Shown piece after piece: positions 444 to 26,524 of a stretch of 44,211 nt of DNA; position 1 is the stretch's first letter; the number at the start of each line of letters is the position of its first letter. A program made the position numbers and the translations under genes. This stretch comes from a virus: the IMG/VR virus record IMGVR_UViG_3300045136_000237, positions 1 through 44,211 of that record. One strand, written 5' to 3'. Below the pieces are notes generated by a model. That model saw only the letters and a list, made by a program, of their open reading frames with translations. It was not told the origin of the DNA and did no database searches.

Positions 444-473
444 CGCGAAACCGAACGATCGTTCGGTTTCGCG
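444..473. repeat. Perfect 30-bp palindrome
   Basis: CGCGAAACCGAACG, AT, then its reverse complement give a perfect 30-bp palindrome about 40 bases after the stop codon of the gene at 513-707. There is no T-run on either side, so a simple intrinsic terminator is not obvious. In the right-hand version of the locus this insert is missing and only a short TTTCGCGCGAAA palindrome remains. It may be a weak terminator, an operator or a small hairpin insertion. Confidence 0.6.
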
Positions 474-577
474 CGAAAATTTCGAGTTCTCGTGCCCTCT
501 CTCGCACACATGTCAAGGCATCGAATTTTTCGATTTCTTGTCTTCGATGATCTTTTCGAGACTCGCAAGCTTCGCAT
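467..577. repeat. 111-bp direct repeat, left copy
   Basis: These 111 bases are identical to 44101-44211, the last bases of the window. The identity stops on the left at 466 (G) versus 44100 (C) and on the right at the window end. It covers the 3' end of the small gene at 513-707. The simplest reading is that the contig closes on itself here (a circle or circularly permuted genome of about 43.6 kb) and that bases 1-466 are an alternative branch of the same locus. Confidence 0.9.
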
Positions 578-707
578 CATGCACGATCAAAAGCTCGCTC
601 GCATCTCCTTTTGAGAAGATGCGCGGCCAGCGTCGATTGATGAAGATGTTTCTTTCGTTTCGCACACGCAATTCTAAATCGATATCAGCGAAGAGTCGCA
701 GCTTCAT
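513..707 (-). CDS. Array mini-protein 24 (last gene of array)
   Basis: A 64-residue protein starting MKLRLFADIDLEL, in an ATGA overlap with the preceding gene. Its closest relative is the protein at 898-1104, with which it shares the N-terminal pattern [KR]LR-x-[YF]AD-x-DLEL and a following block of RN, a hydrophobic run and R-x-W. The C-terminal part (about 45-64) is a charged helix, LEKIIEDKKSK, as in the other array members. It is the promoter-distal end of the operon. Its last 21 codons lie inside the 111-bp repeat. The function is unknown. Confidence 0.8.
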   Translation of the reverse strand: MKLRLFADIDLELRVRNERNIFINRRWPRIFSKGDASELLIVHDAKLASLEKIIEDKKSKNSMP

Positions 708-901
708 TCTCCGAGCAGCTTCTTTTCTACGTCAGAATATTGCTTTGCGTCATCTGCCTTTCCTTCCCAGAGATTGAGCGCCGCGTAATTCTTCAATTTG
801 TTTTTCCGAAGCGTAAGCGTCACCCATCTATTCGTCTGTCGTTCGACAGGTAAGAGGTCGATATGACTTCGAGCGACGACCAAACGATTTGTTAGCTTCA
901 T
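704..901 (-). CDS. Array mini-protein 23
   Basis: A 65-residue protein with ATGA overlaps on both sides. It begins MKLTNRLVVARSHIDLL and carries the IDLL strand, then NRWVTLTLRK, which matches the RWVLLALW segment of the protein at 1101-1331. The core Trp strand is ALNLWEGK, and the C-terminal helix (DVEKKLLGE) is unusually short. No catalytic motif or signal peptide is visible. The function is unknown. Confidence 0.8.
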   Translation of the reverse strand: MKLTNRLVVARSHIDLLPVERQTNRWVTLTLRKNKLKNYAALNLWEGKADDAKQYSDVEKKLLGE

Positions 902-1104
902 TCCTTCGCCTTAGTTGTTACGCTCTCGATCTCTCTCCCTATATCATTCCCCCATCGATCCTTGCACGCTATGAATAACTCAACTGCGATCGTCTTCTCG
1001 TTGCCCGAGTTGTATCGCGCACGCCAATTCCTGCTTATGAGTAGGTTTCTTCTTCGATCAGTAGTAAGTTCCAAATCGAAGTCAGCGTAAACGCGCAGTC
1101 TCAT
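898..1104 (-). CDS. Array mini-protein 22
   Basis: A 68-residue protein, MRLRVYADFDLEL at the N-terminus, overlapping its neighbours by four bases on each side. It is a close sibling of the final array gene (513-707): both follow the DLEL strand with an Arg/Asn-rich turn and ISRNW or INRRW. The C-terminal IGREIESVTTKAKE is the predicted amphipathic helix with a basic end. The function is unknown. Confidence 0.8.
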   Translation of the reverse strand: MRLRVYADFDLELTTDRRRNLLISRNWRARYNSGNEKTIAVELFIACKDRWGNDIGREIESVTTKAKE

Positions 1105-1331
1105 TCTCTCTTTGTCTTTGCTGTTGCTTTCTCTATCGTTTCCGATAGTTCGCTCTCGATTCGGCGAAAGGTGAGGAATGTTCTTTCGCCGATCTTCTTA
1201 TCTGCCCAGAGATCAAAGTTTATAGCAGACTGGCTCAACCAGAGCGCAAGCAACACCCATCTGTAATTTCTGAAAGGCGACAACATTTCAACGTCTCTGT
1301 AGTGATCAGGTGTGCCTCGACTTAGCCTCAT
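1101..1331 (-). CDS. Array mini-protein 21
   Basis: A 76-residue protein. An open frame extends 12 codons further upstream, but the internal ATG at 1331 (MRLSRGTPD) matches the family start pattern and keeps the overlap with the previous gene short, so it is preferred. It has DVEML, then RWVLLALWLS, a FDLWADKK strand and the helix FRRIESELSETIEKA with a Lys-rich tail. It is a complete example of the array layout. The function is unknown. Confidence 0.75.
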   Translation of the reverse strand: MRLSRGTPDHYRDVEMLSPFRNYRWVLLALWLSQSAINFDLWADKKIGERTFLTFRRIESELSETIEKATAKTKRE

Positions 1332-1494
1332 TTCTGAATCTCGCTTTCTGAACTTCGTCTTCGACACGACGAAATACTGAATTTTGATAGTCTACTCGCA
1401 AATCGAGTTGCCTATGAAGAACAGCAAAGATCAGACTCTTGTCAGCACGAACAAGCTCGACGTTGTTGTCAGCCGCGCACTTGACGAGTTTCAT
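1306..1494 (-). CDS. Array mini-protein 20
   Basis: A 62-residue protein starting MKLVKCAADNNVEL. The AADNN block is shared with the protein at 2806-2997. The segment ADKSLIFAVLHRQ is recognisably like the D-K-hydrophobic strand of the proteins at 3181, 2806 and 2640. The tail is FRRVEDEVQKARFR. It overlaps the gene before it by ATGA and the gene after it by 26 bases. The function is unknown. Confidence 0.8.
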   Translation of the reverse strand: MKLVKCAADNNVELVRADKSLIFAVLHRQLDLRVDYQNSVFRRVEDEVQKARFRNEAKSRHT

Positions 1495-1670
1495 AGTCCG
1501 TCTCTTTCCCGTCGTTTCATAGCTCTCGTGATCATACTTTCAACTGACTCCCATGTCTTACTCAGGTACAGTTTAGATTCTTGATCAAGGTGTCGTAGAT
1601 AGGCTGTCAGATTGTCTTTCTTGTCTCGAAGATCGACATCTCCAAACGATACGCTTTTTACAAGTTTCAT
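1491..1670 (-). CDS. Array mini-protein 19 (59 aa)
   Basis: A 59-residue protein found by reading the gap between its neighbours; it is short enough to be missed by a 60-codon cutoff. It starts with ATG at 1670 (MKLVKSVSFGDVDL) and ends in TGA at 1491, with four-base ATGA overlaps at both ends, which is strong evidence that it is real. It has VDLRDKKDNLTAYLRH, a KLYLSKTW strand and the helix VESMITRAMKRRE. The function is unknown. Confidence 0.8.
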   Translation of the reverse strand: MKLVKSVSFGDVDLRDKKDNLTAYLRHLDQESKLYLSKTWESVESMITRAMKRRERDGL

Positions 1671-1891
1671 TTGTGCTTTCTACTCTTGCGTCGTTTTCTT
1701 GCGTTCTCTATCCTGATTTCAAAATTCAGAAGTTCACTATATTCTTTGTTTCTTCCTACTCGTGTTCTGACACCAAGTCTTGCGAGTTCGTTTCTCTGAC
1801 ATACATCGCAGTCGCAAACATAGAGACTAACATCTTTGAGTAGTGATCGTTGCGTTAGCTGAACTTCTCTATGATACTTTCGCAGTCTCAC
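1667..1891 (-). CDS. Array mini-protein 18 with Cys cluster (GTG start)
   Basis: A 74-residue protein whose first codon is GTG at 1891 (M-RLRKYHREVQL). This choice matches the family start and gives a 23-base overlap with the previous gene. Unlike its siblings it has a cysteine cluster, CDCDVC, at residues 27-32, which could bind a metal. The C-terminal helix FEIRIENARKRRKSRKHK is strongly basic. The function is unknown; nucleic-acid contact by the basic tail is only possible. Confidence 0.75.
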   Translation of the reverse strand: MRLRKYHREVQLTQRSLLKDVSLYVCDCDVCQRNELARLGVRTRVGRNKEYSELLNFEIRIENARKRRKSRKHK

Positions 1892-2072
1892 GCGTCGGTC
1901 TCTCGATCTCGAATTCGATATTTTTCCAAGCCTTTTTCGTGTCCTCGCACCAGACGTTTAAGTCGTGCTCTTTCGAGTTATCTCCTCGATAGAACACGAC
2001 AAGATTTGACCCTTGGTGTTCGAGCGTTAGCATGTCGTTGTCTCCGACGATATGAACTTCACGAATTCGCAT
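1869..2072 (-). CDS. Array mini-protein 17
   Basis: A 67-residue protein. The ATG at 2072 (MRIREVHIVGDND) fits the family start better than an in-frame start 8 codons upstream. It is a sister of the next protein upstream (2059-2259): both have SNL, two hydrophobics, F[FY] and GD[SN] followed by KE, and both end in WKNIE. The Trp strand is LNVWCED. The pair shows that local tandem duplication followed by divergence built the array. The function is unknown. Confidence 0.8.
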   Translation of the reverse strand: MRIREVHIVGDNDMLTLEHQGSNLVVFYRGDNSKEHDLNVWCEDTKKAWKNIEFEIERPTRETAKVS

Positions 2073-2259
2073 GTCTTTTATCGACTTCTGTCTCAATGTT
2101 CTTCCAGTCTCTGCATCGAAGATCGATGTAATATTCCTTGAAAGAGTCCCCTACCGCAAAGAAAATTGCTAGATTACTTCTCACACCGTTCTTGATATTG
2201 ACATTGGAAAGAACGAGGAGACCTGAGGTATTAGCGACTACGGCCTTTCGCATTCTCAT
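2059..2259 (-). CDS. Array mini-protein 16
   Basis: A 66-residue protein, MRMRKAVVANTSG; a start two codons later is equally possible. It shares SNLAIFFAVGDSFKE and WKNIETEVDK with the protein at 1869-2072. Its Trp strand is degenerate (YYIDLRCRD), with the tryptophan moved into the helix start. It overlaps the preceding gene by 29 bases. The function is unknown. Confidence 0.75.
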   Translation of the reverse strand: MRMRKAVVANTSGLLVLSNVNIKNGVRSNLAIFFAVGDSFKEYYIDLRCRDWKNIETEVDKRHANS

Positions 2260-2440
2260 ATTTGTACCTGATCTCGTGCTCGATCTCGAACCACACCCCT
2301 TGGCCTGAAAGCAGAGACTCCTTGTTCACCCAGATATCCATAAATCTTTCTCCGAAGAGGATGAGAGACCATCTCATTCCCGATAGACCGTGTGTGCTTA
2401 GGAGTATTCGCTTCGTGAAGTGATTCTTTCGTAATTTCAC
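2231..2440 (-). CDS. Array mini-protein 15
   Basis: A 69-residue protein starting MKLRKNHFTKRILL. It is a close paralogue of the protein at 2437-2643: both have N-[HN]-F-[TA]-KRILL near the start and a DIW strand (MDIWVNKE here). The C-terminal helix is VWFEIEHEIRYKYEN. It is joined to the previous gene by ATGA. The function is unknown. Confidence 0.8.
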   Translation of the reverse strand: MKLRKNHFTKRILLSTHGLSGMRWSLILFGERFMDIWVNKESLLSGQGVWFEIEHEIRYKYENAKGRSR

Positions 2441-2643
2441 GTTCTTCGCTTTCCAAAATTCTCGCGCCTCTTTATCGCGAGCTCAATCTCGAACTCTACT
2501 TCAACCCACTTCCAAGCAGACGATCTATCAGTCCAGATATCGAGAATAGGATTTCCTAAGAGCAGAACAGACATCAACTCATTTGGCGACTTTGTCACAT
2601 TTAGCAATATTCTCTTCGCGAAGTTGTTTCTTTTTATCTTCAC
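2437..2643 (-). CDS. Array mini-protein 14
   Basis: A 68-residue protein, MKIKRNNFAKRILL, with four-base overlaps on both sides. It pairs with the protein at 2231-2440. The middle has ELMSVLLLGNP, then LDIWTDRS, then WVEVEFEIELAIKRRE, the clearest form of the family's Glu-patterned C-terminal helix. No membrane segment is predicted by eye. The function is unknown. Confidence 0.8.
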   Translation of the reverse strand: MKIKRNNFAKRILLNVTKSPNELMSVLLLGNPILDIWTDRSSAWKWVEVEFEIELAIKRRENFGKRRT

Positions 2644-2822
2644 TTCTTCTTTGCCCTGGCACGCATGTGCTCTTCTACGAATTCATCCAACCAAGTCGCG
2701 TGCCTAGAACCAAACACGAACATGTCTGTCTTTGTTTTCCCTTTTCGCAAGTACATCTGAATGATCTTTCTGTCTGGGCGAATATCGAAGTCGAAAGCGC
2801 CTTCCCTAACGATCTTTATCAT
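2640..2822 (-). CDS. Array mini-protein 13 (60 aa)
   Basis: A 60-residue protein, MIKIVREGAFDFDI. The stretch FDIRPDRKIIQMYLRKG matches the IDVTSKDKIIM segment of the protein at 3181 and IDISDQLIMF of the protein at 2806. The Trp strand is replaced by DMFVFGSR, and the helix WLDEFVEEHMRARAKKK keeps the acidic-then-basic pattern. It overlaps the previous gene by 17 bases. The function is unknown. Confidence 0.8.
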   Translation of the reverse strand: MIKIVREGAFDFDIRPDRKIIQMYLRKGKTKTDMFVFGSRHATWLDEFVEEHMRARAKKK

Positions 2823-2997
2823 TTTTCTGTCTCTCAGTCTTCAGCACTATTTCGTCGATTTTCTTGAACTGCTTTCCGTCCCATACCCAGGCATCCAATC
2901 CGAAGCCGTACGTCGTCCAAAGCGAGAACATTATCAGTTGATCAGAAATGTCAATGAAGCCGAGGTTGTTATCCGCGGCGTCGTTTTTCAGTCTCAT
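2806..2997 (-). CDS. Array mini-protein 12
   Basis: A 63-residue protein, MRLKNDAADNNLGFIDI. It shares AADNN with the protein at 1306-1494. The central part is LIMFSLWTT followed by LDAWVWDGK, then KKIDEIVLKTERQK. It overlaps the previous gene by 29 bases, so start and stop are interleaved in two frames. The function is unknown. Confidence 0.8.
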   Translation of the reverse strand: MRLKNDAADNNLGFIDISDQLIMFSLWTTYGFGLDAWVWDGKQFKKIDEIVLKTERQKNDKDR

Positions 2998-3178
2998 CTC
3001 GTCTCGAGTTCTTTGCGTATGTTGTCGATCTCTCTATGTATGAGACATTCATTCCCCTCCACCCTTTCTTGTCAGCAATTGCAATCCAGACATAATAAGG
3101 TTCGGGCGATAGCCCGAACAAATATCGATTCTCCCAACTCAGCTTTTTGGCGATAACAGCGCCTGCTTTTAGCTTCAT
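2969..3178 (-). CDS. Array mini-protein 11
   Basis: A 69-residue protein, MKLKAGAVIAKKL, starting two bases after the previous stop (TAAAAATG). It has the strand PYYVWIAIADKK and the helix-like MNVSYIERSTTYAKNS with a very basic end (EKRRRG). The N-terminal hydrophobic-Asp strand is not obvious, so this is one of the more diverged members. The function is unknown. Confidence 0.75.
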   Translation of the reverse strand: MKLKAGAVIAKKLSWENRYLFGLSPEPYYVWIAIADKKGWRGMNVSYIERSTTYAKNSRRDETEKRRRG

Positions 3179-3180
3179 TT

Positions 3181-3378
3181 TTATGACTCTTGCGTCTCGT
3201 CGATCATCTCATCAACACCGCGGAACCATCCACTTTCTCGCATAAAGTATACGTCGGTTCCTCTTTCTTCGTCCGAAAACTCTGGCGTTTCTCGTCGAAG
3301 AAACATAGGCATGATGATCTTGTCTTTGCTTGTCACGTCTATGTCTTCTTCGACGAAACTACGAACGACTCTCATCAT
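3181..3378 (-). CDS. Array mini-protein 10
   Basis: A 65-residue protein with two adjacent ATG codons; the second (MRVVRSFVEEDIDV) fits the family start. It has IDVTSKDKIIMPMFLRR, then a DVYFMRESGW strand and VDEMIDETQES. It lacks the basic C-terminal tail of most siblings and ends acidic. It overlaps the previous gene by 20 bases. The function is unknown. Confidence 0.75.
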   Translation of the reverse strand: MMRVVRSFVEEDIDVTSKDKIIMPMFLRRETPEFSDEERGTDVYFMRESGWFRGVDEMIDETQES

Positions 3379-3565
3379 TTCTTTTCAGTCTCGAGACGAC
3401 CGTGTCTTCGATACCCTTCGCGAGCTCGCCAATTCGGTAGTAGAAGTCGAAGAGATTTCTTATGCTATGTCTACTAGGCGGGTTGTGCAGGTAACAAACA
3501 AGTCTGCCCCTGTGATCGAGCATATCAATGTCACCGATTTCTCGATTGTGATCTACTATTCGCAT
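3359..3565 (-). CDS. Array mini-protein 9
   Basis: A 68-residue protein, MRIVDHNREIGDIDML. The IDML strand is followed by RGRLVCYLHNPP, an aromatic strand FDFYYRIGE and the helix KGIEDTVVSRLKRNDE. Tyrosines stand where other members have tryptophan. It overlaps the previous gene by 35 bases. The function is unknown. Confidence 0.75.
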   Translation of the reverse strand: MRIVDHNREIGDIDMLDHRGRLVCYLHNPPSRHSIRNLFDFYYRIGELAKGIEDTVVSRLKRNDESRS

Positions 3566-3719
3566 CTCTAATCACCCACTCGATACTCTTTCCTTCGTAC
3601 TCGTCCTTGCCGACTTTGCGCATCGGAGTATAGAGATCTTCTCTCGTGAACGTTGTTACGTTGTTTCCCTTGCCTGAGAGAAGATCTATGAACTTTGTCA
3701 TTTTCTTTAGCCAAAGCAT
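3531..3719 (-). CDS. Array mini-protein 8
   Basis: A 62-residue protein, MLWLKKMTKFIDLL, starting four bases after the previous stop. An ATG six codons later exists, but the longer start aligns LKK-x-x-KFIDL with LKKNSPRFLDL of the protein at 3851, so it is kept. It lacks a clear Trp strand and ends EWVIRDANSRSQSRNR. The function is unknown. Confidence 0.7.
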   Translation of the reverse strand: MLWLKKMTKFIDLLSGKGNNVTTFTREDLYTPMRKVGKDEYEGKSIEWVIRDANSRSQSRNR

Positions 3720-3723
3720 GTTC

Positions 3724-3945
3724 TCATCTTTTGTTGAGTTTACGAAGGAGCGATCTGTAGTTGATTGTCTCCTCGAGTTTCCTGTTCAGAAGGCTGTTCT
3801 CTCGCCAGAGAAATGTCGCGATGATTACATCGGCCTCTCTCGTCTCCCATTCATCGTTCGGGTGAAGAATAGAGAGCAGATACCGTCCCTTTTTCTCTTC
3901 GTTCACGAGATCGATGTATCTTACGCTGTCTCTCTGTAGTCTCAT
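3724..3945 (-). CDS. Array mini-protein 7
   Basis: A 73-residue protein, MRLQRDSVRYIDLV. It belongs with the proteins at 3851 and 4122 (RF[LI][DN]LR in those, RYIDLV here). It then has RYLLSILHPND, DVIIATFLWREN and the helix LNRKLEETINYRSLLRK. It lies 95 bases inside the 3' end of the gene before it, in another frame, because that gene has lost its usual stop. The function is unknown. Confidence 0.75.
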   Translation of the reverse strand: MRLQRDSVRYIDLVNEEKKGRYLLSILHPNDEWETREADVIIATFLWRENSLLNRKLEETINYRSLLRKLNKR

Positions 3946-4141
3946 TCGACAAGCCTCTTATACTGAGCTCTGTCTCTAATTCCGAAAGACCGTACTTTCT
4001 GCCTCTCATCCAGATAACTACTTCATCATCGTCGCCGAGATCGGGGTAGGTTTTCGTTCTGCGTGCGAGGGATATCTGAACGATGTAACCACTCGCAACT
4101 CGCAAATCTAGGAATCTTGGACTATTTTTCTTGAGTCTCAT
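3851..4141 (-). CDS. Array mini-protein 6 (96 aa, extended C-terminus)
   Basis: A 96-residue protein starting at 4141 (MRLKKNSPRFLDLRV). It is the sister of the protein at 4122-4340; both have [SR]RFL[DN]LRV, QxSL, R-x-x-KTYP and GDDDE. In the sister the frame stops right after NETQEK; here it continues past NETTER for about 28 basic residues and overlaps the next gene by 95 bases. The extra tail is probably read-through into sequence whose real product is the next gene. The function is unknown. Confidence 0.7.
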   Translation of the reverse strand: MRLKKNSPRFLDLRVASGYIVQISLARRTKTYPDLGDDDEVVIWMRGRKYGLSELETELSIRGLSNETTERQRKIHRSRERREKGTVSALYSSPER

Positions 4142-4340
4142 TATGATAGTAGTTGAGATCTCTTTCAAGCTGCGTAGTGCCGTGCTTTTTGTTTCTTACA
4201 GATAATGTAATTTCATCATCGTCGCCGATCTTTGGATAGGTTTTCATTATGCGCGAGAGCGATAACTGAATAACCCCCTCCTCTTTATCTTTCTCGACAC
4301 GAAGATTCAGAAATCGCGACCATGCCTTTCGGAGTATCAT
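4122..4340 (-). CDS. Array mini-protein 5
   Basis: A 72-residue protein, MILRKAWSRFLNLRV, joined to the previous gene by ATGA. It is nearly collinear with the protein at 3851-4141 over 70 residues (VIQLSLSR, MKTYPKIGDDDEITLSV, QLERDLNYY), making this the clearest recent duplication in the array. The acidic GDDDE turn might bind a cation, but no enzyme family is recognised. The function is unknown. Confidence 0.8.
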   Translation of the reverse strand: MILRKAWSRFLNLRVEKDKEEGVIQLSLSRIMKTYPKIGDDDEITLSVRNKKHGTTQLERDLNYYHNETQEK

Positions 4341-4558
4341 TGTCTTTGCTCCAGCACTCTCTCTATTTCCGTATCCATCTCTACGTAGTCACCATACTTT
4401 CTTCTTTGAGCAACGCGCATCCAGAGCTCGCAATCGATTACCGATCCTCGGAATATTTCCAGCATAGGATCGATGTCCCTAAGTCGTTTGCCCCAATCCG
4501 CAACGTATAGAACTCTCGATGTTTCTGAATTGACATCAAGTCCTCTTCGAATTTTCAT
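4337..4558 (-). CDS. Array mini-protein 4
   Basis: A 73-residue protein. ATG at 4558 (MKIRRGLDVNSE) is chosen over a GTG two codons upstream because it gives the family start. It has GLDV, VLYVADWGKRL, a CELWMRVAQR strand and the helix VEMDTEIERVLEQRQ. It overlaps the preceding gene by 23 bases. The function is unknown. Confidence 0.75.
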   Translation of the reverse strand: MKIRRGLDVNSETSRVLYVADWGKRLRDIDPMLEIFRGSVIDCELWMRVAQRRKYGDYVEMDTEIERVLEQRQ

Positions 4559-4745
4559 TCGCACTCACAACTAAGCTATCGATTGGCATAGCTACCGTAT
4601 ACTCTCTTTTGATTTTCACCCAGACATCGTATTGCTCGTCTTCCTCCATATTGTGAATCTCCACGTAGAATCTCTTTGTCGAATCAGAAATCATGCTAAC
4701 TGTTGTTGTCGAGAGGATCGGGAAGACACGCCTAATAATTCTCAT
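4536..4745 (-). CDS. Array mini-protein 3
   Basis: A 69-residue protein; ATG at 4745 (MRIIRRVFPIL) sits in an ATGA overlap with the previous stop. The segment RFYVEIHNMEED resembles RCFEIIHEEY in the previous protein and RYFEILLEG in the one before, so the first three array genes form a subgroup. The Trp strand is YDVWVKIKRE. The function is unknown. Confidence 0.8.
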   Translation of the reverse strand: MRIIRRVFPILSTTTVSMISDSTKRFYVEIHNMEEDEQYDVWVKIKREYTVAMPIDSLVVSANENSKRT

Positions 4746-4957
4746 TCTCTTCGTTCCCAATTGCGACAATCCTCTAGCTTGCCCTCGAGCTCGATTGACA
4801 TACGCTGATCCTTATCTCTCAATATCGAAATCGAGAGTTTGTCTGGAAAGTGCTCCGGAGCGTATTCTTCGTGAATAATCTCGAAGCACCTTCCTCCGTA
4901 TTTCGACGAAATCGTTGCAACCTTTCCGTAGATCCAGTTGTCCTTCTTGATTCTCAT
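4742..4957 (-). CDS. Array mini-protein 2
   Basis: A 71-residue protein; ATG at 4957 (MRIKKDNWIYGK) is in an ATGA overlap. Further in-frame starts upstream would lie inside the previous gene and are rejected. It has RCFEIIHEEY, LSISILRDKD and the helix MSIELEGKLEDCRNWERRE. The tryptophan of the core strand is absent. The function is unknown. Confidence 0.8.
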   Translation of the reverse strand: MRIKKDNWIYGKVATISSKYGGRCFEIIHEEYAPEHFPDKLSISILRDKDQRMSIELEGKLEDCRNWERRE

Positions 4958-5178
4958 TCTCGTCGGTGCCTCGAGCACGTATACCAAGCGATATCTCGCG
5001 TGTTTTTCTCGCTCGTCATTGCGAGCATACACACGTCATACATTCTCGCCTCTTGCAAAAGATTTGCCGTCTCAGGAACTGTTGCCGTAGCGACATGCTG
5101 TCCCTCGAGAAGGATCTCGAAATAGCGAACGCGAGCCCTGCGCAAAGTCGCGACGTAATCATTGAACGACATCTTCAC
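4954..5178 (-). CDS. Array mini-protein 1 (first gene after the VWA protein)
   Basis: A 74-residue protein, MKMSFNDYVATLRRARVRYFEILLEG. Its ATG overlaps the stop of the metallopeptidase-VWA gene (5175-5178), so translation of the array is coupled to that gene. It is atypical: the N-terminus is longer and the core is MYDVCMLAMTSEK with no tryptophan there. It shares the R-aromatic-x-EI strand with the next two genes. The function is unknown. Confidence 0.75.
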   Translation of the reverse strand: MKMSFNDYVATLRRARVRYFEILLEGQHVATATVPETANLLQEARMYDVCMLAMTSEKNTRDIAWYTCSRHRRE

Positions 5179-6449
5179 AGCTCCTTGCTCTGAATCTCGA
5201 AGTCGATATCTCGCAGCGCGTTCTTGAGCGACTTATCGTTCGGCAAAATAAAGATATTCATCGGGACTTCATTCGGCAACTTTTCCGGAAAGTCGTAGAT
5301 CTCGCCGTCAGTGACCCAAACAATTGCGTCATACTTTCGGCGAGACATTGCGTAAGCAAAAACCTGTGCGCAAGTCGTCCCTCCCCCACCAGGAATACTC
5401 GTACCCGGAATCCAAGGATACACGCCGGTATCAAACGTAACGCAATCGACGTTGTCTTCTCGCTTCAACCACGAGGCAATTCTCGTGGCGATCTCGAGAC
5501 GCTGTCCGAACATGCTTCCCGACGCGTCAACCGCGACGAGATAATTCACCTTCGGGAAGCGCGCCACACCGCGCGTTTCCGCAAAGTGACCCTCGCGACT
5601 CCAGGTGCGAACAAGTTCTCGCTTTCCGAAATTCTTGACCTTTCTCACGTGCTCGATAATCTTGCGGGCATACGGGACAGGAAGCGGCTTGGGAACAGGA
5701 GCCTTTCGCGTGCGATTCTGAATATCGAGACCGGCACTTTCGCCCATCTCTTTCCGTGCCAGAATCTGCGCACGCAACGCTTCCTGAATTCTTGCTTTCA
5801 GTTCTTCCTGAGGAATCTTACGCTCGTCATCACCGTCGATAGGCTGAACGTGACAAGCAAACTCGGGAGGAATGTGAAAACGCTTGACGCGATAGGGACG
5901 GATGGCAATTCTGCAGGAGAGAATTGCGCGGCCGATCCGCCCCAATTCCTCGAGGTTTAGCAAAGCGCTTTCGCGCTCTGCTTCTTCTTCGGCGTAAGCG
6001 TTGAAGTCCTCGTCGATGAGATACTGACAGTGCTCTGCAACTGTCTCGATTTCCTTGACGAACTCCTTGAAGAGTTCGTCTGCTGTTTTCTCTTTCTCCT
6101 CGGTCTCGCTTTGTCGTTGCCTGATAGCGTCGGCGATTACTTTCGCCATTTCGATCCTTCCTTCAGGCAACGTGATTCCGAGATCGCGTTCGACAAGCGA
6201 GCGCGTTACTGTTTCGTCCGGCAGTTTCGACTTGCACCTTTCGTTGATGTAAACCTCAGTTGCAATCTCGTAGGCCTTAGCGTAGACAGGATCGTCTTCC
6301 GCTTTCGGCCAATTGATAAGATCCCCGAGCGCGATATGCCACAATTCGTGCTCGAGGATCGCTGCGATTTCTCGTTTCGGTCGATCGACTGGCACGATGA
6401 TTGTCGTGCCGCCGTCGACAATTTGTGTCGCTCCGTAGATCGTTTTCAT
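5175..6449 (-). CDS. Metallopeptidase-like plus VWA-domain protein (DUF2201 type)
   Basis: A 424-residue protein with two parts. The N-terminus has an HExxH motif, HELWH at 34-38, in a region like the putative metallopeptidase domain DUF2201_N. The C-terminus is a VWA domain: the MIDAS motif DASGS is at 308-312, a Gly/Thr loop at 353-359 and VTDGE at 379-383. In bacteria such proteins are usually paired with a MoxR AAA+ ATPase, as here (7079-8188), and the pair is thought to act like a chaperone or metal-dependent remodelling complex. Whether the HExxH part cleaves peptides is not known. It differs from CobT, the VWA partner of CobS, in having the HExxH domain. It overlaps its neighbours by four bases at each end. 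Confidence 0.9.
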   Translation of the reverse strand: MKTIYGATQIVDGGTTIIVPVDRPKREIAAILEHELWHIALGDLINWPKAEDDPVYAKAYEIATEVYINERCKSKLPDETVTRSLVERDLGITLPEGRIEMAKVIADAIRQRQSETEEKEKTADELFKEFVKEIETVAEHCQYLIDEDFNAYAEEEAERESALLNLEELGRIGRAILSCRIAIRPYRVKRFHIPPEFACHVQPIDGDDERKIPQEELKARIQEALRAQILARKEMGESAGLDIQNRTRKAPVPKPLPVPYARKIIEHVRKVKNFGKRELVRTWSREGHFAETRGVARFPKVNYLVAVDASGSMFGQRLEIATRIASWLKREDNVDCVTFDTGVYPWIPGTSIPGGGGTTCAQVFAYAMSRRKYDAIVWVTDGEIYDFPEKLPNEVPMNIFILPNDKSLKNALRDIDFEIQSKEL

Positions 6450-6667
6450 CCCTCATCCTCCTCGCTTTTTAGCAACATGTAGCGACTCTTTTCATTGACA
6501 CGATACTCTTCGACATCCCTCCCGTCAAACAGCTCATCATAAGCGAGACGAACGTAGTTGAATGCTCGAAACTTGAAGAAGATTTCGAAGTCATTCAATC
6601 TGAGAAGATTGTTCGGCTTTCCGTTCTTGTACATCAGGCAGGAGTCACGATCCCTTGCCACTTTCAT
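6446..6667 (-). CDS. Small hypothetical protein between MoxR and VWA genes (3 of 3)
   Basis: A 73-residue protein. ATG at 6667 follows a GGAAAGGAAGCGG purine stretch and lies within the end of the previous gene; an earlier in-frame start at 6709 is less likely. It has LLRLNDFEIFFKFRAF, a DELFDGRD segment and a very acidic end. It looks distantly like the array proteins downstream but lacks their basic tail. Its stop overlaps the ATG of the VWA gene. The function is unknown. Confidence 0.75.
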   Translation of the reverse strand: MKVARDRDSCLMYKNGKPNNLLRLNDFEIFFKFRAFNYVRLAYDELFDGRDVEEYRVNEKSRYMLLKSEEDEG

Positions 6668-6881
6668 TCCGCTTCCTTTCCCCGAGGTCTTCCCAGCGCG
6701 AGATGTCAATGTCGAATAGCGTACTCGAGACCCACTCGTAGCCCATTGCCGTTAGCGTAAGATCTCGATGCCAAAACCTGATAACGTCGATGTTCATATC
6801 GAAAACCTCATCCTCGACCTTGGTCCTTTTTCTCCTGAGGATATATATTGTTTGCTTACTCCCGCTTTGCCTTAGCAGCAT
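6645..6881 (-). CDS. Small hypothetical protein between MoxR and VWA genes (2 of 3)
   Basis: A 78-residue protein, MLLRQSGSKQTIYIL. It is homologous over its length to the upstream protein at 6856-7101: M-x-L-[KR]-QS, TxYI, DEV, a D-hydrophobic strand, then [NG]-x-GW-V-[AS]-S and a short acidic/basic tail. The pair is another local duplication inside the operon. The genes overlap by 26 bases. The function is unknown. Confidence 0.8.
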   Translation of the reverse strand: MLLRQSGSKQTIYILRRKRTKVEDEVFDMNIDVIRFWHRDLTLTAMGYEWVSSTLFDIDISRWEDLGERKRNESGKGS

Positions 6882-7101
6882 TTCTTTTCCTGTTCAACAT
6901 GTCCCCACTTTCGACGAGCTCGTTCCAGTTTTTGATGATCTTGAAGAAACTACTCGCAACCCACCCGGCGTTCATTACCGTGAACTGATAGTCAGGATGC
7001 CGGAGCGAAATATCGCATCCGGCATCCATCGTCAAAACCTCGTCCGAACTGCTGTGCGAAATATACAATGTGTATTTCTTAGGACTCTGCTTCAGAAACA
7101 T
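6856..7101 (-). CDS. Small hypothetical protein between MoxR and VWA genes (1 of 3)
   Basis: An 81-residue protein starting at 7101, behind a good AGGAGG ribosome site about 10 bases upstream and inside the 3' end of the MoxR gene. It has MFLKQSPKKYTLYIS, DAGCDISL, NAGWVASSFFKI and a Lys/Arg-rich tail. The start-Trp-basic-tail plan is like a longer version of the array family. The position next to the MoxR gene suggests it works with that protein. The function is unknown. Confidence 0.8.
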   Translation of the reverse strand: MFLKQSPKKYTLYISHSSSDEVLTMDAGCDISLRHPDYQFTVMNAGWVASSFFKIIKNWNELVESGDMLNRKRNAAKAKRE

Positions 7102-8188
7102 TCTTTCGAGTCCTCCTAGGACGCTTAGCGTTAGCCCAAAGCGTCCCGTTTTCGGCGTCGCGAATCAATCCATCGACCACAGCCGTAGACTTCTTGATGA
7201 AACTTTCCTCCGTTTCGTTTCGCATCACCTCGATCTCACCCCCATTCTCATCGAGGATCTTGGAAACATTCTCCCACCACGATCGGAGGATCGTTTGCCG
7301 ATCCTCCTTCTTCGGATGGTTTCGCCAGATCTTATCGATGACCGTCATCAGGTCATCGGCGGTATCCTCTGCCGTAATCGCGGCCGTAGCCGCGATTGCG
7401 TACTCGGGAACCGAGATGCTATCCCAAAGGTTTTCGCGCTTCACAACCTCGAGGAAATCCTTAGGCGTAAGCTGAATTTGCGCCTTCATCTGCAAGAACA
7501 TATCCTCTGCGAGATCTCGCGGAAAGATCCCGAGAAGCGTAGTCCACAACTGTTCGCGCGTGAATCGGCGAACGTTATCCATAACCCAATTCAGCGCCCG
7601 AGCGTTCACTCGACGCGCAACGGGCAACTCGATTTCCGAAGCAGGAAGATACCCCTCCGGAATAACGATATTCTGAGGGAGTCGCGGTCGGGCGTGAACG
7701 AAAACGAGCCGACCAGACAAAGCAATACCCGTTTCGTCAGAGAGCCAGATCTCCGGCGAAACGGGCTGCATTGCCGCGACAATGATCGTATCGGGATGAA
7801 GCGAAACTTTGTGGACTCGCTTATCCCAAAGCAGAGTCAAGGTCGTCGCCAAATTCTCGGGACGAGCCTTGTCCAATTCGTCGAGGAAAAGAATACCCGG
7901 ATGGTGATGCAGTTCCCACACCCATTCCGGGTACGACCAGCGCAACGTATCTCCATCTCGTGTCGGAACCCCGAGAAATTCCTCGGGCAATTCCGTTGCC
8001 AGCAGGCGAATCACGAGAGGATAATTGAGCTCGCTAGCCAATTGCTTTACGCGTGCCGTCTTCCCGCTTCCCGATTCGCCGATCAAACAAACGCGAAGGT
8101 TTTCCGCCTCTCGGGGAAAAACCTTCACGAGCTCGATAGGATCGACGGTATTCGGGATCATCTTGGCTTCGCGGTTCTCGTCACTCAT
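7079..8188 (-). CDS. MoxR-family AAA+ ATPase
   Basis: A 369-residue ATPase. Walker A is GESGSGKT (37-44), Walker B is ILFLDE (99-104), and a conserved E-L-P-E-E-F-LG block at 66-73 and a LSGRLVFV segment are typical of the MoxR/AAA_5 group that partners with VWA proteins. MoxR ATPases use ATP to insert cofactors or remodel protein complexes together with their VWA partner, which lies three genes downstream. The ATG at 8188 overlaps the stop of a 58-codon gene. The C-terminal 100 residues are charged and end in a basic RPRRTRK stretch that may bind nucleic acid. CobS is an alternative label, less likely because the partner is not CobT-like. Confidence 0.92.
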   Translation of the reverse strand: MSDENREAKMIPNTVDPIELVKVFPREAENLRVCLIGESGSGKTARVKQLASELNYPLVIRLLATELPEEFLGVPTRDGDTLRWSYPEWVWELHHHPGILFLDELDKARPENLATTLTLLWDKRVHKVSLHPDTIIVAAMQPVSPEIWLSDETGIALSGRLVFVHARPRLPQNIVIPEGYLPASEIELPVARRVNARALNWVMDNVRRFTREQLWTTLLGIFPRDLAEDMFLQMKAQIQLTPKDFLEVVKRENLWDSISVPEYAIAATAAITAEDTADDLMTVIDKIWRNHPKKEDRQTILRSWWENVSKILDENGGEIEVMRNETEESFIKKSTAVVDGLIRDAENGTLWANAKRPRRTRKNVSEAES

Positions 8189-8357
8189 TTCCGTTCTCCT
8201 TTTCGCCGAAGATGTTGTTGAGGTTTCGCCAGAATTCTTCGATCTCGTTCTCGAGATCGGCTGGCTCGTCGATACTCGCCTCGATATTCACCTCCTGTCG
8301 CCATTCGCTTTCCTTGAGGATTGCCGCGTCAATTCGCGGGTCTGTCACGTCACGCAT
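8181..8357 (-). CDS. Small acidic hypothetical protein (58 aa)
   Basis: A 58-residue frame from ATG at 8357 to TGA at 8181. It overlaps the zinc-finger gene before it by 8 bases and the MoxR ATG after it by 8 bases, which is the same coupling as elsewhere in the operon and is the main evidence that it is translated. It is acidic, with an ENEIEEFWRNLNNIF helix near the C-terminus. An AAGGAG site inside its 3' end serves the MoxR gene. The function is unknown. Confidence 0.7.
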   Translation of the reverse strand: MRDVTDPRIDAAILKESEWRQEVNIEASIDEPADLENEIEEFWRNLNNIFGEKENGNE

Positions 8358-8556
8358 TTTCGGTCATGCAGATCTTGCAGAGGATGAGGTCCGAATAGTC
8401 GTGAGCGAACAGATCCTCCATGTGAAAAATATACCTGCCCTTTCCACGACACTTTGGGCAGGTATTCCCACCAAGATTTCCCTCGCCGTGACACATTAGG
8501 CAAGTCGCGACGAGCGTTCGCTTCTGGAGCAATTCGAGAAGCTGCTTCGTCTTCAT
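8350..8556 (-). CDS. DnaJ-type zinc-finger protein (no J domain)
   Basis: A 68-residue protein with CLMCHGEG (Cys 19, 22) and CPKCRGKG (Cys 33, 36), two CxxCxGxG motifs like those of the DnaJ cysteine-rich domain, plus a third pair CKIC (60, 63). The J domain itself is absent. Such free-standing zinc modules can hold other proteins or nucleic acids. A GGAGG site lies 11 bases ahead of the ATG. Standing just ahead of the MoxR and VWA genes, it may be an adaptor for them. Confidence 0.85.
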   Translation of the reverse strand: MKTKQLLELLQKRTLVATCLMCHGEGNLGGNTCPKCRGKGRYIFHMEDLFAHDYSDLILCKICMTENA

Positions 8557-8559
8557 TTT

Positions 8560-8766
8560 CTAGTAGTCCTCCTTTTCCGTCGCCTCCCAAAGCTTTCGGA
8601 TACTCTCGCAGGTTTCGCAATCGCAACCCTCGAGAAGAAAATCGTGAAGCAATTCCTCGAGCGGCCTCTGAAGCAAGAGCTCGAGATCGCTTCCGCTTCC
8701 CGTTCCCATTTCCCTTTCCTTTCCTTCGCTCTGGTATTCGCGCCCAAAGCCGCGCAGCCGACGCAT
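8560..8766 (-). CDS. Small Cys-containing hypothetical protein, first gene of the MoxR/VWA/array operon
   Basis: A 68-residue protein starting MRRLRGFGREYQ at 8766. An open frame extends further upstream but crosses the -10 and -35 of the promoter at 8783-8811, so the internal ATG must be used. It has an acidic helix DLELLLQRPLEELLHDFLLEG followed by CDCETC, a possible metal site, and ends acidic. There is no strong ribosome site and the leader is only about ten bases. The function is unknown. Confidence 0.7.
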   Translation of the reverse strand: MRRLRGFGREYQSEGKEREMGTGSGSDLELLLQRPLEELLHDFLLEGCDCETCESIRKLWEATEKEDY

Positions 8767-8782: not shown

Positions 8783-8811
8783 ATGATACCATGAGACAAT
8801 TTAGGTGTCAA
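8783..8811 (-). promoter_or_regulatory. Strong sigma-70-type promoter of the MoxR/VWA/array operon
   Basis: On the minus strand TTGACA (8806-8811), a 17-base spacer and TATCAT (8783-8788) make a near-consensus bacterial promoter. The first ATG is 16 bases further on. All genes from 8766 to 513 follow without a gap large enough for another promoter, so this one probably drives about 8 kb. Its strength suggests early transcription by host RNA polymerase. Confidence 0.85.
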
Positions 8812-13230: not shown

Positions 13231-13447
13231 CTAGCATTCCCCTCCTGATCGCCTCAGATATCCCTGGCCTGCCACGCACTTTAGCGAGAAGCATGATAGC
13301 ACGAGCGAGGGCGCGTCGTCTAGCGACAATGTCGATCAGGCACACACCACAGGCTCGCCAGTCAGTGATGTTCTGATTGTACGAGACGCTAGACCTCTGA
13401 CATAGCTCGCATGGTGCTCGGACTTGCTGCAACCCTAAGATTCTCAT
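13223..13447 (-). CDS. Small zinc-ribbon-like protein
   Basis: A 74-residue protein with two CxxC pairs, CELC (13-16) and CGVC (33-36), which can form one zinc-binding knuckle, followed by a basic helix IVARRRALARAIMLLAK. It begins 59 bases inside the end of the epimerase gene, in another frame. A small nucleic-acid- or protein-binding role is plausible. Confidence 0.65.
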   Translation of the reverse strand: MRILGLQQVRAPCELCQRSSVSYNQNITDWRACGVCLIDIVARRRALARAIMLLAKVRGRPGISEAIRRGMLDE

Positions 13448-14405
13448 TGATGACTCCGTAGTGTCTCATTAGTCTCAACCAATTCAGACGCTTCGTTCGG
13501 AACAACGAGATATCGGCTCTATTATTCCACGCGAACACGACGAGCTTGTCGATCTCTTGCTTAAAGAATTCTACCGATGTCTCGCTCTCTTTGAGAATCC
13601 CGTCCTCAAGTGCGAGAGAGCAGTCAGCTCCGTACGTTCTTGCGTCCCTGTCTCCTCTGATCCTGCTCGCGTCGACCTTCTCGCCGCAAATCCTCAGCCT
13701 GCTTTCGACGATGAAGTTGACGAGGTCGTAGATGCGGCAGGAGATGTTGGCGACGTTGTACGTCTTGTTACGCTTCTCGCGAGAGAAGATTGCTCTGACG
13801 ATCGCTCTGACGGCGGTGTCGATCGAGCAGAGAGGACGAATGGCTGTGCTGTACTCGATGGGATCGACGATGCTCATGTTGTTGGCGGCGAGGTCTGTTC
13901 GGAACATCGGGGAGGGGCCGAAGAGAGTCCCGAACCGAAAGATTACGTGATCCTCTGCTCGCCTGACGTATTCCTCAGCCTTGACCTTCGAGCGAGCGTA
14001 CGCCGTGAGAGGATCGAGGCTGTCGCTCTCGCGCATGTTCTTCCCCGCCCCTCCGTAGACCGAGCACGAGGAAGCGAGGATGTGCCTTGCCAGAGGCCAG
14101 CGATCGATGATCTCCTTCACGGCCTCGGCGTTGATTTGCATTGTCGGCTCCTCGAACTCCTCGCTCATCGGATCGTTGCTGATGGCGGCGAGGTGAACGA
14201 TGACATCGAACATTGTTTCGGTTTCGATCTTCGGGAGGTCCCTGACATCAACGAGCATGACGCCGTAGAGATTCGGAGGGCAGATCGCCGTTGGGAGGAA
14301 CCATCCAGTGTCGCACCCCCAGACCTCGGCCTTGTTCATGTCGATGAGTCGTTGCATCAAAGCCGAGCCAAGATAGCCGCAGGCCCCCGTGACAAGAACT
14401 CTCAT
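13389..14405 (-). CDS. NAD-dependent sugar-nucleotide epimerase/dehydratase
   Basis: A 338-residue member of the extended short-chain dehydrogenase family. The NAD-binding motif GACGYLG is at 7-13, VIVHLAAIS follows as the fourth strand, SSCSVYG holds the catalytic serine region, and YARSKVKAEE holds the Tyr-xxx-Lys pair. These enzymes epimerise or dehydrate nucleotide sugars. The last 70 residues have no clear counterpart in short family members. It overlaps the RmlD-like gene by ATGA, so the two act together. Confidence 0.85.
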   Translation of the reverse strand: MRVLVTGACGYLGSALMQRLIDMNKAEVWGCDTGWFLPTAICPPNLYGVMLVDVRDLPKIETETMFDVIVHLAAISNDPMSEEFEEPTMQINAEAVKEIIDRWPLARHILASSCSVYGGAGKNMRESDSLDPLTAYARSKVKAEEYVRRAEDHVIFRFGTLFGPSPMFRTDLAANNMSIVDPIEYSTAIRPLCSIDTAVRAIVRAIFSREKRNKTYNVANISCRIYDLVNFIVESRLRICGEKVDASRIRGDRDARTYGADCSLALEDGILKESETSVEFFKQEIDKLVVFAWNNRADISLFRTKRLNWLRLMRHYGVINENLRVAASPSTMRAMSEV

Positions 14406-15205
14406 GCGATTGTCTCCTTTCGTCGCTTCAGATCCATGAGCGCATCAACGATGTGCCTCGACGGGGGGAGGAAGGTGTTCGTCAGGCGAGAGTCCTCCGG
14501 CCGTGGAATGCCGTCGTCGGGCTCGTATTCGTTGTATGGGATCTCGACGATCTTTTGCTTCGGCAGCCCGAAAACCTCTCGCGTGCTAGCCCAGAGCTCG
14601 GGGAGCGAGACCGAGGGTAGGGTAACGGAGTGAACGATCCTGCCGATGTATGCCCCTAGGTGTTCGATCACAAAGGCGATATCTTCGGCTACGAACGGGG
14701 CGTAGGACGGTGTGACGCGATGACGAACGAGGCGAACCTCTTGATCGGTCGAGGTAAGGGCACGCTCAACGATGCTCGGTCCCTTGTGCGAGGGGTAGGG
14801 GCCGAATAGCGAGGAAACTCGCACAACTACCCCTCCTCGCGCCAGAGTCTCCTGCTCGCCGTGAAGCTTAGACCTGCCGTATTCGTTGATAGGCAGGGGT
14901 CGATCCCATTCCCTGTGAGGCCCCGGACCAGAGAACACGTAGTCGCTCGAGATATAGATTGTAGGGATCGTGGCTGCCACGTTGGCGGCCCCTCGAGTAT
15001 TGACTCGCCGAGCCAGGGCCGGATCGGCCTGAGAGGCTCGGACATGGACTGTCGCGGTGTTAACAGCCAGGGAGAAGGAGCTCAGAACTCTGCGGCAGGA
15101 AGACAGATTTTCAACCTCGATCTCGCTATGTGAGATCAAGGTGCAGTTGAGGCTCTCCGCCAAACTTTGAGCCAGACACCCTGTTCCGATTACTGCCAGC
15201 CTCAT
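14402..15205 (-). CDS. RmlD-like nucleotide-sugar reductase
   Basis: A 267-residue protein resembling dTDP-4-dehydrorhamnose reductase. It has an N-terminal cofactor loop (GTGCLAQSL, 7-15), YISSDYVFSG with the conserved SSDYVF, and NEYGRSKLHGE carrying Tyr-xxx-Lys. RmlD reduces a 4-keto sugar to give dTDP-rhamnose; whether this protein uses the same substrate is unknown. Its start lies 80 bases inside the previous gene. With the adjacent epimerase and the distant nucleotidyltransferase it suggests synthesis of a modified deoxy sugar. Confidence 0.8.
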   Translation of the reverse strand: MRLAVIGTGCLAQSLAESLNCTLISHSEIEVENLSSCRRVLSSFSLAVNTATVHVRASQADPALARRVNTRGAANVAATIPTIYISSDYVFSGPGPHREWDRPLPINEYGRSKLHGEQETLARGGVVVRVSSLFGPYPSHKGPSIVERALTSTDQEVRLVRHRVTPSYAPFVAEDIAFVIEHLGAYIGRIVHSVTLPSVSLPELWASTREVFGLPKQKIVEIPYNEYEPDDGIPRPEDSRLTNTFLPPSRHIVDALMDLKRRKETIA

Positions 15206-16586: not shown

Positions 16587-17624
16587 TTATGATACCGCGA
16601 ACCCTACTCGCTTCTCGCTCGTAGAAGTAATCTGCTGTCCCGAGGCGTAGCACTCGGCGAGTGTCATTGACTTCCCCTCGGGAAGATACACGCCGTGCTT
16701 CGATGCCCAGGCCTGGACTTCATGCGGGGCGAGCTCAGAAAACCTGACCTTTGCCAAGCACCTACCAGGGCGAGTCAGGGCCGGGTGGAGCGTCAGGTCT
16801 TCATCGTTTGTCGTCAGGATGAGAATGACCTTCAGCCCCTGACCAAGCAGCCCGTCCGCCATGTTAAGGAGCCTGCCGATTGCTTCACTGTAGTTACTGT
16901 CGACGCGAACAAGATCGCCAACATCCTCGAGGACGACAACCTTCCACCTCTCATCGTCTTCGAACGAGCTGTCTGCCACAGCCTCAAAAAGATAGTTTGT
17001 GTGAAGCAGGAACCTCTCGGGGTCCGAGACGACATGACTCTCGGCCCAGTCTTTCCACGTCTCAAGCAGGGCTCGAATCGCGTAAGTCTTCCCAGTTCCT
17101 GGTGGGCCGTAGAAAAGAATGGCGCCAGAGCGTTCGGGCACAAACGATGCCAGCCGCGCGAGCGCTCTCTGCGTACTCTCTGAGTAGTTACCGATAATTT
17201 CTGAGAGTCGCGTAACCCCGATGTTTCTCGTCAGGCAACTTATCCCGTTCTGACACTCATACCAAAACGTTGTCTTCACCTGCCCTTCCGGGGCCTTGTC
17301 CTCAGGGATCGTGCGCCTGATAATCCCGAGGACCTCTCTAGCGATAGTCTCGTCAGTGGCGGCGACCCATGCCGTGGCATCCTTCCTCCAGATGTAGATC
17401 ATCGCCGCCCATCGCCTGTCTGGAGAATTCTCCTCATAGACTACTCGCAGCGTTGTGCTGCTTCTATGTGCGGCAACCTTTCTCCCGAGGCGGGGGTACT
17501 CGTTGGGGACTTTGACCGGAGCCCAGTCCTCTCGAAGAATGACCGGGAACTGAGAGTGAGCCATGCTCATAAATTGAGCCGAGGCGATGTCGTCAGGCCC
17601 GTTGACAATGATCTGTGGGTTCAT
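16587..17624 (-). CDS. AAA+ ATPase, first gene of the replication operon
   Basis: A 345-residue protein. The C-terminal half is an AAA+ domain with Walker A GPPGTGKT (173-180), Walker B VVVLED (229-234), a sensor TTNDE and an RPGR arginine-finger region. The N-terminal 150 residues are unique. Phages use such ATPases as helicase or clamp loaders and as chaperones; the sequence alone does not say which. The ATG at 17624 is six bases from the -10 box of a strong promoter, so its mRNA is probably leaderless. It heads a run of overlapping genes down to 8949. Confidence 0.85.
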   Translation of the reverse strand: MNPQIIVNGPDDIASAQFMSMAHSQFPVILREDWAPVKVPNEYPRLGRKVAAHRSSTTLRVVYEENSPDRRWAAMIYIWRKDATAWVAATDETIAREVLGIIRRTIPEDKAPEGQVKTTFWYECQNGISCLTRNIGVTRLSEIIGNYSESTQRALARLASFVPERSGAILFYGPPGTGKTYAIRALLETWKDWAESHVVSDPERFLLHTNYLFEAVADSSFEDDERWKVVVLEDVGDLVRVDSNYSEAIGRLLNMADGLLGQGLKVILILTTNDEDLTLHPALTRPGRCLAKVRFSELAPHEVQAWASKHGVYLPEGKSMTLAECYASGQQITSTSEKRVGFAVS

Positions 17625-21628: not shown

Positions 21629-21657
21629 ATGATAATGCGTATCTATCGATTTGTCAA
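21629..21657 (-). promoter_or_regulatory. Promoter of the exonuclease-to-lysis operon (leaderless)
   Basis: TTGACA (21652-21657), a 17-base spacer and TATCAT (21629-21634) on the minus strand, seven bases ahead of the ATG at 21621. The -35 hexamer overlaps the stop codon of the tail gene at 21654. The hexamers are the same as in the promoter at 8783-8811, so both may be used by the same polymerase form. Confidence 0.85.
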
Positions 21658-23000: not shown

Positions 23001-23933
23001 CTACCTAAATACCTCCGGAACTAACGCCACCCATGTTCCACTCATGGAGTTGACGTATAGATTTATCGGATTTACATCTGATGTAACAAGCGGCACATAC
23101 CCGGATCCCGAAACAGGTGCGACGAGAAGCAGCAGTGGGACCGTGGTCTGCGTTCTCTCGTCTACTGTGTTTCTGTAAATTACCCCCCGGAGAGAATCAA
23201 AAATACCGCCTGGCGCAGGGATGCTCAGCGAGAACTGCGGCGACGCCCCCCACCAATAACTCTGCGGCGAGTTGCGCACAGAAATCGTGCACGTACCGCC
23301 AGATGTCGAAAGATATACCTGCGAAACACCGGGGTATGTTGGCACAATGATGTTGTTCACTGAGGCGGTCAACGTGACCTGCTTGATCCTCATTGCCCCT
23401 CGAAGAGCAGCCGTCGTACCATCCGAAAGCACTCTAAAAGCACTGGTGTTGAACAAGTATGCATTGGCTCTGTGCGTAATTACCGAAAAGCTGAATTTCG
23501 AAGACAGCGTTCCCTGCCTGAACCTGGAGAAGACATATGACGGCAACTCGCGAGGCCTGAAGTACAGCGCAAGAGTCTCCAGACTAAAAGACTCTGTGAA
23601 GACTAGTCTATCAAAGCCATTTGGACAGAATGGGTCGGCTGCGGGAGGGGTGCTAATCCAGATATTCTCGGGGTTGAGGGCACGATCGATACTGTGAACG
23701 ATGTCCCGAACCTGTGTACTCGCTGTAGCAGAAATACGCCCCTCAAAATTAATGACGTACCCAGCCTGCCCCTGCATCTCGACAATGCGCGGCAGCCCAT
23801 ATGGATCACGAACGTCAGCGCCGGGGTTCGCAATCTCGTCGACTGTCACGCGATCGACAAACGTCGTCGACCGATCGTTGATGTTAACTCCTGGATAACC
23901 AAGCAGGATATCATGCGTTAGGCTAATGATCAT
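23001..23933 (-). CDS. Putative distal-tail-like protein
   Basis: A 310-residue protein. The N-terminal 110 residues, with FEGRISATASTQVRDIVHS and ALNPENIW, have the feel of the Dit N-terminal domain that forms the ring at the end of a siphophage tail. The rest is beta-rich with a Ser/Thr/Gly-rich second domain. It is joined to the connector gene by TAATG. The identification rests on pattern and position, not on a diagnostic motif. Confidence 0.5.
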   Translation of the reverse strand: MIISLTHDILLGYPGVNINDRSTTFVDRVTVDEIANPGADVRDPYGLPRIVEMQGQAGYVINFEGRISATASTQVRDIVHSIDRALNPENIWISTPPAADPFCPNGFDRLVFTESFSLETLALYFRPRELPSYVFSRFRQGTLSSKFSFSVITHRANAYLFNTSAFRVLSDGTTAALRGAMRIKQVTLTASVNNIIVPTYPGVSQVYLSTSGGTCTISVRNSPQSYWWGASPQFSLSIPAPGGIFDSLRGVIYRNTVDERTQTTVPLLLLVAPVSGSGYVPLVTSDVNPINLYVNSMSGTWVALVPEVFR

Positions 23934-24628: not shown

Positions 24629-24642
24629 AGTCCTATTTTACA

Positions 24643-26501: not shown

Positions 26502-26508
26502 AACAGTA

Positions 26509-26517: not shown

Positions 26518-26524
26518 GAAAAAG

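Follow-up and report, generated by a model that had tools for sequence, protein, structure and literature searches.

A tandem array of small, diverged genes next to an N4-type AAA–VWA gene pair in a tailed-phage record

Layout of the array

We examined a virus record from IMG/VR, IMGVR_UViG_3300045136_000237 (positions 1 to 44,211; the record is possibly incomplete), and refer to this whole stretch of 44,211 bases as the window. It belongs to a tailed phage and carries phage terminase, portal and capsid genes. Our subject is an array of 24 consecutive, intact open reading frames (ORFs) on the minus strand, running from 5178 to 513 and specifying proteins of 59-96 residues, typically about 65. 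All lie where a sequence-only reading of this DNA had placed them, and its estimate that about a tenth of the genome is devoted to them is correct for the 44.2-kilobase (kb) record.

The ORFs cover 4660 of the 4666 bases of the array, in agreement with the claim that the genes follow each other with almost no gaps. The accompanying claim that they are mostly joined by ATGA overlaps went too far: overlaps of 4 nucleotides (nt) occur at 10 of the 23 junctions. Another 11 junctions overlap by 14-95 nt, bringing the overlapping junctions to 21, and the other two are gaps of 2 and 4 nt. Most of the array ORFs were also recovered, on the minus strand, by a simple gene caller that took its codon usage from the record's long genes. 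The genes are listed below (p values are from the leave-one-out test described in the next section, z values from pairwise alignment).

g01, 4954..5178, minus strand: 74 residues, GTG start; first ORF of the array; no detectable family membership (p=0.45; equaled or outscored by 74 of the 394 controls)
g02, 4742..4957, minus strand: 71 residues; weak member (leave-one-out p=0.03)
g03, 4536..4745, minus strand: 69 residues; member, scoring above all 394 controls
g04, 4337..4558, minus strand: 73 residues; member
g05, 4122..4340, minus strand: 72 residues; sister of g06 (z 25.8); p=0.065 without its sister
g06, 3851..4141, minus strand: 96 residues; sister of g05; C-terminal extension overlapping g07 by 95 nt
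g07, 3724..3945, minus strand: 73 residues; member
g08, 3531..3719, minus strand: 62 residues; member
g09, 3359..3565, minus strand: 68 residues; member
g10, 3181..3378, minus strand: 65 residues; member, acidic (isoelectric point, pI, 4.4)
g11, 2969..3178, minus strand: 69 residues; weak member (p=0.0175)
g12, 2806..2997, minus strand: 63 residues; member, related to g20 (z 7.5)
g13, 2640..2822, minus strand: 60 residues; member
g14, 2437..2643, minus strand: 68 residues, GTG start; sister of g15
g15, 2231..2440, minus strand: 69 residues, GTG start; sister of g14
g16, 2059..2259, minus strand: 66 residues; sister of g17
g17, 1869..2072, minus strand: 67 residues; sister of g16
g18, 1667..1891, minus strand: 74 residues, GTG start; weak member (p=0.027); very basic tail
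g19, 1491..1670, minus strand: 59 residues; closest of all members to the consensus (24.4 bits)
g20, 1306..1494, minus strand: 62 residues; member
g21, 1101..1331, minus strand: 76 residues; member
g22, 898..1104, minus strand: 68 residues; sister of g24
g23, 704..901, minus strand: 65 residues; member
g24, 513..707, minus strand: 64 residues; last member; sister of g22

At least 19 of the 24 genes are copies of one ancestral gene

The sequence-only reading held that most of these genes belong to one family. For each protein we built a profile that excluded both the protein under test and its obvious sister, and compared its score with those of 400 shuffles of its own sequence. Twenty of the 24 proteins scored at p≤0.0075, and a second run placed 19 of 24 at p≤0.01. 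A set of 394 real small proteins, almost all of them taken from related phages, served as a further control; 17 array proteins exceeded every one of these and 23 of 24 fell within the top 2.5 percent. When the same procedure was applied to nine control phages (seven structurally related and two N4-like), only 0-2 members reached p≤0.01, and the small genes of the seven structurally related phages gave no family signal. Ordinary hydrophobic patterning was considered as the source of the array's signal and is ruled out by the nine control phages and the shuffles. The only plainly negative protein is g01; g02, g11 and g18 are marginal. The individually weaker members are g02, g05, g11, g13, g16 and g18; of these, g05 and g16 owe their place to their sisters.

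The four sister pairs named in advance (those beginning at 4122/3851, 2437/2231, 2059/1869 and 898/513) are by far the strongest, with alignment z scores of 25.8 for g05/g06, 15.7 for g14/g15, 15.8 for g16/g17 and 15.0 for g22/g24. They are followed by g12/g20 (z=7.5) and g19/g20 (z=6.0), and otherwise by a sparse web of weaker links. Copies share about 15-35% identity, with 46% in one pair. The farther apart two genes stand in the array, the less alike they are: neighbors have a mean z of 3.3, compared with 0.85 when gene order is shuffled (p=0.0004). A search of the record with the array profile matched 22 places, training sequences included, all of them within the array. Because neighbors are far more alike than chance would allow and the family tests were passed, the proposed local duplication and divergence is strongly supported. 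These results establish statistically that at least 19 of the 24 genes are copies of one ancestral gene that was duplicated in place and then diverged until barely recognizable; an origin of the array by repeated tandem duplication, g01 excluded, is well supported.

The copies have stayed intact and are, on average, under purifying constraint. The proportion of synonymous differences (pS) exceeds that of nonsynonymous differences (pN) in each of the seven pairs of sisters or near-sisters, and the ratio of the corresponding substitution rates (dN/dS) is about 0.4-0.5 where dS is unsaturated. Together with the recovery of most of the ORFs by the codon-usage caller, the synonymous excess in all seven pairs indicates that these are real genes under constraint. 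It also bears on a non-adaptive origin, in which copies made by recombination were simply retained. The strong correlation between similarity and adjacency, a sign of repeated local duplication, is what such a process would leave; however, passive copies would be expected to hold stops and frameshifts, and all 24 genes are intact and tightly overlapping, with synonymous excess in the sister pairs. We therefore consider passive retention very improbable.

The sequence plan proposed for the family was only partly upheld. Its start is common, with lysine or arginine at position 2 in 20 of 24 proteins and isoleucine, leucine, valine or methionine at position 3 in 21 of 24. The strand around a tryptophan is a tendency rather than a rule (a [DN]-hydrophobic-aromatic motif occurs in 10 of 24 members), and the basic tail occurs in many members, not all: over the final 12 residues, net charge runs from -5 to +8. 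Searches of Pfam, PHROGs and PADLOC yielded no convincing match common to the members (the best E values, 0.0042-0.09, each involved one member), and no convincing relative was found among PDB sequences.

The composition of the proteins would suit factors that bind nucleic acids or modify transcription or translation, with RNA or DNA of the phage or the host as their target: most have a pI of at least 8, and many end in a lysine/arginine-rich stretch. Against this, neutral or acidic pI values of 4.4-6.7, within an overall range of 4.4-10.5, occur in six of them, and no nucleic-acid-binding family was matched in Pfam, PHROGs, PADLOC or PDB sequences. Such a role is, in our judgment, unlikely.

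Two AlphaFold2 models computed from the array's own alignments were of low confidence (predicted local distance difference test scores, pLDDT, of 59.4 and 66.6). The better of them, itself weak, shows no more than a beta hairpin and, after it, a long C-terminal helix; searching PDB folds gave no match below E=3.6. The predicted hairpin and helix would be compatible with the proposed alpha/beta plan, which is not to say that they prove a shared fold.

Upstream genes and relatives of the phage

The array is preceded on the same strand by a series of genes that includes an AAA ATPase and a VWA-domain protein. These and the sequence features at either end are as follows.

5175..6449, minus strand: N4-type VWA protein with an N-terminal HExxH (HELWH) and DxSGS/GGGGT motifs; phrog_1314 E=1.1e-13; 4-nt overlap with g01
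6446..6655, minus strand: u3, a small gene between AAA and VWA with several possible starts; outside the array family
6645..6881, minus strand: u1, forming a duplicated pair with u2 (z 16.0); borderline against the array profile (p=0.055)
6856..7101, minus strand: u2, sister of u1
7079..8188, minus strand: N4-type AAA ATPase (MoxR/dynein-related AAA_5); Pfam AAA_5 7e-12, phrog_1297 3.5e-18, blastp to an N4-like ATPase 2e-13
8181..8766, minus strand: three small genes with which the presumed operon opens; the one at 8350-8556 has a DnaJ-like CxxCxGxG zinc-ribbon pattern
8783..8811, minus strand: promoter-like site TTGACA-17-TATCAT with TGn (extended -10); 11 of 12 consensus positions match, a match and not a proof
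444..473, no strand assigned: perfect 30-base-pair (bp) palindrome just past the array; possible terminator or operator
467..577, no strand assigned: 111-bp exact direct repeat of 44101-44211 (the record end), spanning the tail of g24 and the spacer

The AAA and VWA genes were assigned to the N4 type on the basis of their PHROGs profile matches and conserved motifs; HExxH, DxSGS and GGT are conserved in an alignment of the VWA protein with N4-type proteins. Their homologs in phage N4, genes 24 and 25, are core genes of the middle period (PMC4193335). Among the promoter-like sites in the left 10 kb, the one at 8783-8811 is the strongest, and it lies directly before the AAA-VWA-array stretch; only three others of comparable strength were found in the whole record, on the same strand, and none of comparable strength stands between AAA, VWA and array. 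A single operon of about 8.3 kb, comprising the small genes, AAA, u2-u1-u3, VWA and the array, is thus likely. An extension of the array family into u1-u3 was considered and is not convincing: u1 and u2, 42% identical, form a pair of their own (z 16), with array-profile p values of 0.055 and 0.30.

This arrangement suggests that the small proteins might be adaptors for, or clients of, an AAA-VWA machine, each bringing a different host or phage protein for remodeling or cleavage. The linkage, which the sequence-only reading did not mention, is the one direct clue to function. AAA, VWA and array adjoin one another on a single strand, joined by short overlaps; between AAA and VWA sits a further duplicated pair (u1/u2), and the VWA protein retains its HELWH and DxSGS motifs. 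The gene 24/25 region of N4-like phages (Schitoviridae) likewise holds homologous AAA (phrog_1297) and VWA (phrog_1314) genes amid small genes, one of which, in HN02, lies between the two, as here. SPO1 gp53 offers an example of a phage adaptor-like protein acting with a host AAA+ protease (PMC6873191). The small genes beside AAA and VWA in HN02 and IME11, however, form no common family, unlike the array (0 of 17 and 0 of 20 at p≤0.01, respectively), and the occurrence of the N4-like AAA-VWA pair without such an array weakens the proposal; linkage by itself is weak evidence. We regard this main rival to the interpretation given below as possible, though rather doubtful.

Many environmental viral contigs encode relatives of the portal, terminase and capsid proteins, 38-49 percent identical to them, and an alignment of the portal retrieved 340 relatives from IMG/VR. 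Neither the array nor the VWA gene was detectable in any of 50 whole records of portal-sharing phages, so that the arrays of other gene number, which the sequence-only reading had proposed to look for in related contigs, did not come to light there. IMG/VR searches with the VWA protein, a VWA alignment, the AAA protein and the pairs g05/g06, g22/g24 and g14/g15 found nothing, and the 24 array proteins, joined and compared by tblastn with 50,697 phages, gave a best match of only E=0.8. In ten near-complete relatives the longest run of small genes, as delimited by a rough gene caller, was seven. Since very near records may lie outside the searched set, we report the array as absent from the searched data and do not claim that it is unique. 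A search of bacterial genomes with the terminase gave one 3.4-kb contig (SCSV01000025.1), binned with a Salinibacterium metagenome genome and carrying a terminase 39% identical; this is a weak hint of an actinobacterial host, too slight to assign one.

The distribution and position of the array also speak to a role in the virion, as many variants of a minor capsid, decoration or ejection protein. Small multi-copy phage genes can be structural, and roseophage RPP1 has a second structural module close to its homologs of genes 24/25 (PMC4193335). Here, though, the array belongs to the AAA/VWA stretch, a long way from the block of terminase, portal and capsid genes (about 21654-40138), and it could not be detected in portal-sharing phages, which makes virion proteins a very unlikely identification.

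Several further features of the record were noted. At the two copies of the 111-bp repeat (467-577 and 44101-44211) the borders differ by a piece of about 32 bp that contains the palindrome, and behind each copy, reading along the minus strand, lies a related gene (1-255, cut, and 43385-43735). Possible readings are a circular record that combines two strain variants there, or a tandem duplication. PHROGs labels phrog_1314 "HNH endonuclease", which looks mistaken; the record of phage IME11 names its member "VWA-like domain-containing protein". Another AAA ATPase is encoded at 16587-17624 and contains a DUF5925 domain (Pfam 2.4e-8). Two adjoining genes at 13389-15205 read as nucleotide-sugar epimerase/reductase-like and those at 24643-26501 as glycosyltransferase-like, in each case from sequence reading only.

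Comparison with known systems and a proposed role

Clusters of small genes with no known function are common in phages, and those of the nine control phages are collections of unrelated genes. A search of the open-access literature found no described phage array of the present kind; two systems come near it. The host-takeover module of the Bacillus phage SPO1, like the array, packs some two dozen phage genes (26 in SPO1) closely together, and expression of several of the SPO1 genes attenuates the growth of the host (PMC6873191). The SPO1 genes are not described there as one diverged family, whereas the array is statistically one family, and no sequence relation was detected between the array and any of the 50,697 phages searched. 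AcrID1 provides the evolutionary counterpart: 26 of its 35 homologs lie close together in four rudiviruses, and the authors infer duplication and possible diversification (PMC11065993). These too are several adjacent, diverged paralogs of one small viral protein for which diversification has been proposed. They differ from the array in number (about 6-7 copies per genome, 26 in four viruses, against about 23), in arrangement (mostly single genes with a common regulatory sequence, against one gapless stretch) and in belonging to archaeal viruses; AcrID1 had no Pfam or PDB sequence match among the array proteins. In its organization the array resembles the SPO1 takeover cluster, and in its evolution the duplicated AcrID1 genes. 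We see in it a new and extreme instance of a small phage gene expanding in tandem, akin to known small-gene takeover clusters and expanded anti-defense families and, on present evidence, not categorically new.

We tentatively favor the view that the array is a diversified set of small host-directed effectors, serving host takeover or anti-defense. The proteins would be produced as a group in the early or middle phase of infection, each binding a different target, such as a host enzyme or defense protein, through the variable parts of a common small scaffold; the phage would thereby carry a ready-made panel of host-directed inhibitors or anti-defense effectors. Nothing found here contradicts the suggestion of the sequence-only reading that the proteins are adaptors, inhibitors or substrates directed at varied factors of the host. 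The step from a diversified family to host-directed effectors is our inference. It draws on the combination of a diversified family, constrained genes and an operon-like layout, on a lineage-restricted distribution like that of accessory effectors (none of the 50 portal-sharing records, and no database homologs), on the middle-period expression class of N4 genes 24/25 (PMC4193335), and on the precedents of the SPO1 takeover module (PMC6873191) and the AcrID1 duplications (PMC11065993).

Several results weigh against this proposal. No member resembles a known inhibitor or anti-defense protein in Pfam, PHROGs, PADLOC or PDB sequences, and the charges vary so widely (pI 4.4-10.5) that no target class is obvious. 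Positive selection was not shown in the sister pairs (dN/dS <1). The two AlphaFold2 runs did not give a reliable fold, and with no array of a different gene number found in related phages, turnover between strains could not be demonstrated.

A more specific form of the effector proposal, which we hold to be improbable, would join it to the neighboring genes: one scaffold duplicated more than 20 times might let a single operon deliver binders to different host targets, possibly as interchangeable adaptors for the co-encoded AAA/HExxH-VWA machine, and so form a phage combinatorial adaptor set, a strategy not described before.

The descent of most of the 24 genes from one ancestor turns a list of orphans into a single evolutionary experiment in which the same scaffold was diversified repeatedly. 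Identifying the binding partners of two or three members would reveal how a phage makes new host-directed proteins. The linkage of the array also offers a testable hint to the role of the N4-like AAA-VWA pair.

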